Source of the DNA: Gloeomargarita lithophora Alchichica-D10
GTDB lineage: Bacteria > Cyanobacteriota > Cyanobacteriia > Gloeomargaritales > Gloeomargaritaceae
Assembly (NCBI RefSeq): GCF_001870225.1
Contig: NZ_CP017675.1
Coordinates: 575,284-615,679 of the forward strand
Direction: 5' to 3'
DNA: 40,396 bases
Shown here: positions 849-40,360 of the stretch, in pieces
Numbering within the stretch: position 1 is the stretch's first letter
Layout: the number at the start of each line of letters is the position of its first letter
Notes under the pieces: generated by a model
What the model was told of the DNA's origin: nothing
Databases searched by the model: none
Seen by the model: only the letters and a program-made list of their open reading frames with translations
Made by a program: the position numbers and the translations under genes

Positions 849-1067
849 GGGCACCTCTATAGCAATCCCACCCGATTAGCGAACAGATGTTCAGAAGAAC
901 CAAGTACGGGGGCGGTGCCCCTGCGACCGCTATTCTGAACTCAATTAGGATTGCTATATTTATTTTCACCCGCAGAAAGGTATCTCGCTAGAATGCTAGT
1001 ATTACCGAGAACCAAGGGCGGGGGGTGCCCCCCTGCGACCGCTAATTTTCAATTTATAGAAGTGCCC
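849..1067. mobile_element. Type II MITE-like element, interrupted by a type I element
   Basis: The ends are GGGCACCTC(TA) and (TA)GAAGTGCCC, close to the 11-bp ends of the intact copy at 30648-30757. The 5-mer TAATA flanks it on both sides (844-848 and 1068-1072). A 97-bp type I element sits inside it at 860-956. Without that insert it matches the 30648 copy through the shared segment TCTCGCT-GAATGC and the GC-rich core. It has no coding capacity. Confidence 0.75.
860..956 (-). mobile_element. Type I MITE-like element (97 bp), nested in a type II element
   Basis: The 9-bp terminal inverted repeats TAGCAATCC and GGATTGCTA are perfect, and TA dinucleotides at 858-859 and 957-958 look like a target duplication. 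The uninterrupted site is seen at 30651-30668 (cacctcTAtttattt). The copy at 14707-14803 has exactly the same length in opposite orientation. TA duplication with short inverted repeats is typical of elements mobilised by IS630/Tc1-mariner transposases; the transposase is not in this window. Confidence 0.8.
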
Positions 1068-7224: not shown

Positions 7225-7343
7225 GGCAAATAGGTCGCCGGGGCACCGCCCCCGTATCAGAAGCACCTGCGGTGTATGGTTCTCAGTAATGCCATTATTC
7301 CAGCGAGCTAATTTTCTGCTGGTTCAAATAAACAGAAGTATCC
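7225..7343 (-). mobile_element. Type II MITE-like element
   Basis: The right end CAGAAGTATCC resembles the TAGAGGTGTCC end of the intact copy; the left end is internally deleted (GGC then AAATAGG). TTAA flanks both sides (7221-7224 and 7344-7347). The interior contains the shared core GGTCGCCGGGGCACCGCC and ATTCCAGCGAG. It lies between two divergently transcribed genes and may supply promoter sequence. Confidence 0.7.
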
Positions 7344-7854: not shown

Positions 7855-7992
7855 GGGTACCTCTATTAATTCAAAATTAATGGTCGCAGGGGGGCACCCC
7901 CCGCCCCAGAAGCACCTGCGGTGTATGATTCTCCGTAATCTCTGCATTCCAGCGATGAGATTTTGGGTTAGTTCAAATAAATAGAGATGTCC
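7855..7992 (-). mobile_element. Type II MITE-like element
   Basis: The ends are GGGTACCTCTA and TAGAGATGTCC. ATAA flanks both sides (7851-7854 and 7993-7996), an apparent 4-bp target duplication. It contains the core GGTCGCAGGGGGGCACCC and, like the copy at 7225, an extra stretch AGAAGCACCTGCGGTGTAT that the 30648 copy lacks. It lies 32 bp after the stop codon of the 7418 gene. Confidence 0.75.
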
Positions 7993-8013
7993 ATAAGTAG
8001 CTCAATGCAAATA

Positions 8014-8170
8014 TAACAATCCTAATTGGGTATGGCTACGCCACGCTAATGCCTACGGCACGCTAACGCTATGAGAATAGCGGTCGCAGGGCATCGCCCC
8101 CGTACTTGGTTCTTCTGAATATTTGTTCGCTAAATGGCTTTGCCACGCAAGCTATCGAGTGAGATTGCTA
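8014..8170 (+). mobile_element. Type I MITE-like element, long variant
   Basis: The ends are TAACAATCC and AGATTGCTA with TA on each side (8012-8013 and 8171-8172). Relative to the 97-bp form it carries two inserted blocks rich in GGCTACGCCACGC- and GCCTACGGCACGC-like palindromic sequence, bringing it to 157 bp. The core GCGGTCGCAGGGCATCGCCC and TACTTGGTTCTTCTG is retained. It ends about 75 bp before the -35 box of the sbtA promoter. Confidence 0.75.
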
Positions 8171-8245
8171 TATCAGAGTTTCTGTTTACAAATCCTGTGA
8201 GATTGCTGTCGAGGTATGCCAATAATTTTTACTTATAGTAGAGAT

Positions 8246-10114: not shown

Positions 10115-10386
10115 CGCAAGACCCCAGTAATGTAGCAATCCCACCCGATAGCCTGCGTGGCGTAGCCATTAGCCTGCCTGGGTTGGGAATGGGATAGGGG
10201 TCTGGGCTGACCACGACCGAAAAGATTTCTTTATCAGTTCCCCACCGATTAAATGTAAAGTTTTATAAATGAATCGGGGGTCGCAATTGTTACTTAATAT
10301 GGAGAGAGGAAGATTTCAGTTAGGTTGAAGCGATCGCTAAAACTGGACTGGGATTGTCCAACTCTGAGAAATCTTGGTGAGAACTG
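10115..10386. other. Intergenic region with a truncated insertion element and one HIP1 site
   Basis: A fragment of a type I element (TAGCAATCCCACCCGATAGC then a GGCGTAGCC-type insert, 10133 to about 10171) lacks the core and the other end. AGACCCC and GGGGTCT flank it about 80 bp apart. A single HIP1 octamer GCGATCGC is at 10330-10337. No ORF is supported. The stretch could be the sbtAB 3' UTR or could encode a small RNA ending at the following terminator. Confidence 0.5.
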
Positions 10387-14555: not shown

Positions 14556-14706
14556 AGACACTGCTAAAAATAGGTCGCAGGGATAGCCCCCCGCTTCTGG
14601 TTCTCCAGAATTTCTGTTTACTAAATGGCTATGTCCCGCGGACACACTGCGCTATCATCACGCAGGCTGATGGCTACGCCACGCAGTCTATCGGGTGGGA
14701 TTGCTA
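14556..14706 (+). mobile_element. Chimeric MITE: type II left end joined to type I right end
   Basis: The left end AGACACTGCTAAAAATAGG matches the type II end of the 30648 copy (reverse complement), while the right half (GAATTTCTGTTTACTAAATGGC, split here as GAATTTCTGTTT and ACTAAATGGC, to GGATTGCTA) is type I with the long GGCTACGCCACGC insert. The switch falls at the shared core GGTCGCAGGGATAGCCCCCC. This looks like recombination between the two families through the core. Its last TA is the target of the next element. Confidence 0.65.
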
Positions 14707-14803
14707 TAGCAATCCTATTTGAATTTAGAACAGCGGTCGCAGGGGCACCGCCCCCGTAATTGGTTCTGTGGAATTTCTGTTTGTAAATCGTGCCATATTG
14801 CTA
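14707..14803 (+). mobile_element. Type I MITE-like element (97 bp)
   Basis: The ends are TAGCAATCC and ATATTGCTA with TA on each side (14705-14706 and 14804-14805). Length equals the copy at 860-956 and the core GCGGTCGCAGGGGCACCGCC is intact. Its left junction with the preceding element forms the perfect 18-bp palindrome GGATTGCTATAGCAATCC (14698-14715). It sits directly before a gene remnant. Confidence 0.78.
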
Positions 14804-14805
14804 TA

Positions 14806-24788: not shown

Positions 24789-24858
24789 GATAGCAATAGT
24801 TCCCAGAACTAGGGACGGGCGGTGCCCCGGCGACCGTTTCTTATCATTCAAATATAAT
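24789..24858 (-). mobile_element. Degenerate type I element
   Basis: TAGCAATAG (24791-24799), CCCAGAACTAGGGACGGGCG and GGTGCCCCGGCGACCG follow the order of the type I core in reverse orientation, but about 30 bp between the end and the core are missing and the distal end is decayed. It lies between the start of the 24247 gene and the end of the YqeG gene. The rest of this 207-bp gap is AT-rich with no ORF. Confidence 0.55.
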
Positions 24859-30647: not shown

Positions 30648-30757
30648 GGACACCTCTATTTATTTGCACCAACAAAAAATCATCTCGCTGGAATGCCATT
30701 ATTACCGAGAAGCAAGTACGGGGGCTGCGCCCCTGCGACCTATTCTTAGAGGTGTCC
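30648..30757 (+). mobile_element. Intact type II MITE-like element (110 bp)
   Basis: It has perfect 11-bp terminal inverted repeats, GGACACCTCTA and TAGAGGTGTCC, and TATT on both sides (30644-30647 and 30758-30761). The interior runs TCATCTCGCTGGAATGCC, then AAGTACGGGGGCTGCGCC, the reverse complement of the shared core. It has no coding capacity. It is the best-preserved copy and also shows the uninterrupted version of the site occupied by the nested element at 860-956. Confidence 0.85.
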
Positions 30758-40257: not shown

Positions 40258-40284
40258 GGGAGATTCACCAAAAAAAATCCGCAG

Positions 40285-40360
40285 AGATAGGGGGGGTCTG
40301 CAACGCTGTCCCCGTTATTCGTTCTCCAAAATATCTATTCACAACCCGTATTGGTTTGTT
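40285..40360 (+). mobile_element. Possible degenerate type I element at the right edge
   Basis: GGGTCTGCAACGCTGTCCCC, GTTATTCGTTCTCCAAAATA and TCTATTCACAACCCG follow the order of the type I core and right arm at low similarity. No end repeats are preserved, and the window ends soon after. Confidence 0.35.

Follow-up and report, generated by a model that had tools for sequence, protein, structure and literature searches.

One hairpin core in MITE families with unrelated ends in the cyanobacterium Gloeomargarita lithophora

MITEs are usually viewed as internally deleted copies of transposons with an unimportant interior, and MITEs derived from IS630 elements (Tc1/mariner-like) are also known from other cyanobacteria. 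In 2008, Elhai et al. reportedly found very short repeats lying within larger ones in the genomes of cyanobacteria. The highly conserved domains of SINEs (CORE, V, Deu) are described in PMC6887750 as short central domains of unknown function that occur across families with unrelated ends; the V domain is also present within the mariner-type MITE MER6, and the same text proposes that such domains spread by the combining of elements. According to PMC3116915, REP/REPIN sequences, which are associated with RAYT, are hairpins of high copy number whose 5' side carries fixed letters.

The elements analyzed here carry a 33-nt hairpin module, GGTCGCAGGG-stem-loop-CCCCG-N3/4-TGGTTYT, designated the core, between several types of ends (types I to IV below). 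Types I and III resemble IS630-derived MITEs in being about 100 bp long and gene-free, in having terminal inverted repeats in common with IS630, and in the TA duplication; unlike in those MITEs, their interior, rather than being left over from the parent IS, is a conserved core found also in families with other ends. The nearest parallel is provided by the SINE domains, since in both cases one short conserved center occurs in non-autonomous families with differing ends. However, the SINE domains belong mostly to eukaryotic retroposons, whereas here a core of only 33 nt forms a hairpin in bacterial DNA elements and direct scars of nesting and core–core recombination are seen. Some inserts in these MITEs look like the small dispersed repeats of cyanobacteria, but the core is no optional insert, being present in nearly every end-paired copy. 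With REP/REPIN sequences the core has in common the high copy number, the hairpin and the fixed 5'-side letters; in contrast to them, no RAYT was found in the genome, and the elements have inverted-repeat ends and target duplications. To our knowledge, no other bacterial elements with unrelated ends have a conserved core in common. No bacterial parallel was found in the accessible parts of the literature, no report on MITEs of Gloeomargarita was found, and the literature matches listed for the core sequence were, by title, unrelated to cyanobacteria. The elements represent a bacterial case of unrelated transposons with one conserved core in common.

The window, that is, the whole stretch of 40,396 nt that was analyzed, is part of a single contig of 3,049,282 bp. 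Pattern searches of this 3.05-Mb genome indicated about 300 core copies: the count was 127 for a strict pattern, 289 for a looser one and 307 for GGTCGCNGGGN{2,12}CCCCGN{2,5}TGGTT, the reversed control being 0 each time. The similarity of cores is thus not limited to the window but extends genome-wide and to other genomes, and the proposal of the initial annotation that types I and II have the core in common was borne out at the loci concerned. Family counts were drawn from 840 kb of the genome, comprising the window and further stretches; the latter were picked for known cores, so that copy density there is no estimate, whereas the family make-up is unselected. The claim that all copies are intergenic is mostly true: among 150 cores, 20 overlap an ORF called by naive rules, and many of the ORFs concerned are short and may be spurious. 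Covariance model R1 detected nine cores in the window, which belong to the following loci.

14556..14572, plus strand: decayed type II left arm (AGACACTGCTAAAAATA) of the focal chimera
14573..14604, plus strand: decayed core of the focal chimera (model R1, 30.9 bits)
14605..14706, plus strand: right arm of the focal chimera, of type I and with small inserts in its interior
14705..14805, plus strand: complete 101-bp type I element adjoining the focal chimera, outer TA at each edge
14735..14767, plus strand: core of the type I element 14705..14805 (50.3 bits)
30648..30757, minus strand: complete type II element of 110 bp, flanked on each side by the 4-bp duplication TATT
30708..30740, minus strand: core of the type II element 30648..30757 (45.9 bits)
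849..1067, minus strand: type II element whose right-end TA hosts a nested type I element
858..958, minus strand: nested type I element inside type II 849..1067
896..928, minus strand: core of the nested type I element 858..958 (52.7 bits)
1008..1040, minus strand: core of the host type II element 849..1067 (50.0 bits)
7233..7343, plus strand: type II element, left end decayed, with its core at 7233 and a right arm reaching about 7343 (24 bits)
7855..7992, plus strand: type II element with a small insert after the core, which starts at 7882 (25.1 bits)
8012..8172, plus strand: type I element, extended by small inserts in its interior; core at 8082-8113 (38.1 bits)
24805..24835, minus strand: weak core, no recognizable ends (21.9 bits)

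Decayed fragments resembling type I arms but lacking an intact core were noted at 10130-10180 and 40280-40340 of the window. The insert AGAAGCACCTGCGGTGTATG lies between CCCCG and TGGTTCT at 7233-7290 and 7882-7930 of the window and in L209 of G002; it is found in two species, in copies of both type I and type II. Many copies have a further small insert, ATGGCTACGCCACGC.., in each of their two arms. Type I elements form tandem arrays, repeating every 84–98 bp or so, at G000 73994-74407, 1848292-1849216 and 2479473-2479865. In arrays of the 98-bp kind, the junction of neighbors reads GCTATAGC or GCTATGGC and lacks an additional TA; simple insertion beside a copy would not give such junctions.

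Type I elements have TAGCAATCC ends and a TA duplication, and type II elements have GGACACCTCTA ends and a 4-bp A/T duplication. Where the initial annotation distinguished two families, at least four end types carry the core in this genome, the others having been recognized from the flanks of about 200 cores: type III, with TAGCTAA ends, a TA duplication and the layout TATAGCTAAACACGTAAAGGTTGACATAATAACATG, core, CATTGGTTTTCCGAAATCTTGAGACGACAACCTTACTCTACTTAGCTATA, and a minor fourth family (type IV), with the core between TGTGAGCAAGG / CCTTGYTATTCACA-like ends. The duplications ascribed to types I and II were upheld. Of 72 type I copies, 67 have TA at each outer edge, as do 16/16 type III copies, with no further duplication; among the 29 type II copies with a detectable duplication, it was exactly 4 bp long in 26, and 91% of its letters were A or T. 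Types I and II differ in ends, in duplication length and in arms, and are thus distinct rather than one decayed family. End-paired type I (n = 61) and type III (n = 19) elements are short and non-coding, mostly 101 and 106 bp, respectively. Selection by paired ends only, in the 840 kb, placed the core inside 58 of the 61 type I, 47 of the 52 type II and all 19 type III elements. The core-less exceptions comprise three type I and three type II elements with a decayed core and two type II sequences that do not look like elements.

Such regularity makes it very improbable that the core is a mobile unit of its own (REP/RAYT, IS605-like or a small dispersed repeat) inserted independently into several MITE families, as empty copies of types I–III were not found and the position and orientation of the core are fixed in each family. 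A hairpin with fixed 5'-side letters and a mismatch does resemble REP and IS605 hairpins, and other small inserts do occur in these MITEs; however, the only Y1 transposase of the genome is a plain IS605 TnpA beside TnpB, with no core at its ends, and a Y1/RAYT or IS605 origin of the hairpin was rejected for this reason.

Possible transposase partners were found for two of the families. An IS630-type element at 2.157 Mb of the same genome (L093) has TAGCAATCC ends and encodes DDE_3 and helix-turn-helix domains, its transposase gene being split into two frames; it sits in the TA of a type II end and thereby reveals the empty site. A second IS630-type element, with TATAGCTAA ends and a DDE_3 match (L148), was identified in a genome of the same genus. 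Roughly 27–30 nt of the type I and type III arms can be aligned with the ends of the two elements, the left arms best, and the core begins where this similarity stops; no core was found within either IS630 element. Judged by these alignments, types I and III are IS630-derived MITEs with arms from two different IS630-type elements, and movement by the corresponding transposases is predicted. As for type II, no autonomous partner with its ends (GGNACCTCTA) was found among PF01609 genes, and none between paired ends, in the sequence examined; the PF01609 genes examined were rejected as the source of the type II transposase, since none has type II ends. By its inverted-repeat ends and constant-length duplication, type II is a candidate MITE of a transposase that makes 4-bp duplications. 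In L148 (G006), positions 550-2479 hold a core-bearing repeat between two IS630 copies with TATAGCTAA ends, which is a possible composite unit. The G002 (VI4D9) genome contains 122 near-identical DDE_Tnp_1 transposase gene matches, compared with 5 in the genome of the window.

Two repeat families of the genome have spread without the core, which is therefore not required for MITE amplification in general; the core is common, not universal, among the repeat families of this genome. One of the core-less repeats, at 724-829 of the window, is about 106 bp long, has TACAGCG-like ends and a GGGGCTTAAGCCC-type hairpin followed by a T-run, and has about seven relatives in 840 kb. Another is a 188-bp repeat with TGGGACTTT ends and an apparent 4-bp duplication of CTAR type, with about nine copies in 840 kb (among them G000 382043, 386739, 463926, 710556, 898656, 1396479 and 1659449). 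A probable CRISPR array in L137 (G000 1396377-1399195), built of GTTTCAATCCTCATTCACTCCTAA repeats and variable spacers, is interrupted by a copy of this 188-bp repeat.

Arms were compared on both sides of 138 classifiable cores in the 840 kb. They were concordant in 115 cases and discordant in about 22, so that about 16% are chimeras; a 23rd apparently discordant locus, 582516, was misassigned. Arm switches run in both directions, also involve types III and IV, and have their junction at the core, in agreement with the earlier suggestion that the core is the site where the families recombine. In six chimeras with a type I right arm (888889, 816038, 1392129, 706674, L079 and 341125, the last by eye), a scar was found, namely, a piece of the type II right end beyond the type I end; chimera 888889 also retains the matching TGTA duplication of the host element. 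A scar of this kind is expected if a type I element inserts at a TA within a type II arm and the stretch from one core to the other is later lost; the type I element nested in type II at 849-1067 is proposed to represent the precursor state.

The focal locus at 14556-14706 had been described as a type II left end running through the core into a type I right end, and both arms and the decayed core were confirmed. The wider region 14556-14803 does contain this chimera, but the core at 14735-14767 belongs to the separate complete type I element 14705-14805. The focal chimera has no scar and is directly followed by that complete element. About half of the II/I chimeras, the focal one included, are scarless, and other recombination routes must therefore exist.

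Frequent exchange at the core, seen here directly, also speaks for the strongest rival explanation, neutral common ancestry with gene conversion. It assumes a single ancestral MITE, in which recombination and gene conversion keep a functionless core uniform while the ends follow diverging transposases. Identical small inserts within type I and type II cores favor it too, and three end types (I, III and some of those in Pseudanabaenaceae) are TA/IS630-like and could be one lineage; the type II duplication, however, is of another kind. On the whole of the evidence, including that from core structure and from other genomes given below, this explanation is considered unlikely.

The consensus of the core is GGTCGC, A or C, GGG, variable inner pairs and loop, CCCCG, 3–4 nt, and TGGTTYT. 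The pattern used to collect copies fixed GGTCGC, GGG, CCCCG and TGGTT and left the inner pairs, the loop, position 7 and the spacer free, so the invariant columns of the resulting alignment A1 are built in. Conservation was therefore read from 82 type II copies chosen by the right end alone, in which the three core motifs agree at 81%, 78% and 84%, compared with 66% for the arm and 43–55% for the loop and spacer. This agreement fits either selection after insertion or constraint on the source copies and cannot tell between them. The per-column profile of type I is mixed, as its palindromic ends admit both orientations, and was left unused.

Compensatory base changes, which the initial annotation had suggested looking for, were found in the inner stem, where the two innermost pairs vary on both sides. 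Pair 11-17 is G-C in 28 copies, C-G in 12, and G-U and U-G in one each; pair 12-16 occurs as C-G, U-G, U-A, G-C and G-U, and in the short form its two positions do not pair. For these inner pairs, covariation was 0.210, compared with 0.059 in shuffles and at most 0.070 when the pairing was slid. Such compensation is not what neutral common ancestry leads one to expect. As DNA, the core alone folds no better than shuffled sequence (z −0.22); the type II element and the Pseudanabaena element do fold better (z −3.3 and −6.6, respectively), and type III does so weakly.

Core matches were detected with the covariance model in 22 of 390 genomes of the class, all from two families, that of the genus Gloeomargarita and the Pseudanabaenaceae (which includes Pseudanabaena); every other lineage among the 390 genomes lacked the core. 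It was likewise not found in G003, of the same genus, or in the sister genus G007; relatives in the genus include Gloeomargaritales cyanobacterium VI4D9 and Gloeomargarita sp. SKYG116. Within Pseudanabaenaceae, the core lies between TTACGCGGAA / TTCCGCGTAA ends in G089 (about ten copies read), between TTACAGCA / TGCTGTAA ends in several genomes of one genus (g24) and between AAGTAGGTAA / TTACCTACTT ends in G259 (one copy read); it occurs with TATAGTCATTTTAATTAA ends in G277, with a related form in G306, and G289 has type II-like copies. The description of the core as a conserved cargo of several transposition systems is thus supported by four end types in the present genome and by others in Pseudanabaenaceae. 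IS630 genes are no predictor of the core, which is missing from G007 and several further IS630-bearing genomes; in G005, whose assembly is incomplete, there are cores and no IS630 hit. Phages were considered as carriers and rejected; a loose pattern matched 67 viral contigs, and the four matches with TGGTT look like chance and have no MITE-like flanks.

This distribution weighs further against neutral common ancestry, as two cyanobacterial orders have retained the same core frame despite unrelated arms. Copy number is also low in many of the core-bearing genomes, which leaves gene conversion little to work with.

A further explanation is that the core acts as RNA (a terminator, a processing site or another structure) that makes insertions harmless or useful. 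It would account for a GC hairpin with A-rich sequence before and T-rich sequence after it in many families and for the covariation of the inner stem, and one terminator-like match was indeed obtained, at 14594-14577 on the minus strand, in the core of the focal chimera. However, the intact type II element gave no such match, the T-rich part lies several bases past the stem rather than as in an intrinsic terminator, and placement is not tied to gene direction. With genes called by simple ORF rules, the orientation of cores relative to genes showed no bias once clusters were counted once, nor in two other genomes; gene-linked orientation, suggested by a bias in the raw counts, was rejected accordingly. 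A search of Rfam 15 found no match for the window or for eight core-bearing loci. The terminator option of the initial annotation is therefore unsupported, and an RNA role in general appears improbable. As there is no orientation bias, no Rfam match, no Y1/RAYT relation and no convincing terminator, a role of the core in the element's own life is more likely, we infer, than one in gene regulation. We know of no factor that binds the core.

The reading preferred here, to which we give a probability of roughly 55%, is that the core is a conserved module of several non-autonomous MITE families served by different transposases, with arms exchanged at the cores and the hairpin serving as a cis signal. 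A core-bearing MITE would insert into another, after which two cores would recombine and unite arms of different families; rarely, such recombination may give the core a new mobile pair of ends. The least secure step is the last one, in which the hairpin and its fixed flanks would form a cis signal aiding the spread or the tolerance of the element; this signal would operate during the life of the element itself, on DNA or on a single strand, rather than regulate neighboring genes. Against the reading speak the scarless chimeras, the repeat families that have spread without the core, and the folding of the core alone, which is no better than that of shuffled DNA. In its distribution and its junctions, the core behaves as a conserved recombinogenic module retained through changes of transposon ends, like the eukaryotic SINE domains, though its function is one that we infer. 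More tentatively, it may be a cis-acting hairpin read by a host or shared factor and boosting the spread of any MITE that carries it, whatever the transposase family serving its ends.

In these elements, the interior of the MITE is constant and the ends are exchangeable, and this holds for both kinds of target duplication and across two cyanobacterial orders. The scars offer a concrete route for the swapping of MITE ends. This opens to bacterial tests the questions of how MITEs change their transposase and whether a common interior drives their success. If true, a cis-acting core would be a bacterial counterpart of the SINE domains, across transposase superfamilies and two cyanobacterial orders.
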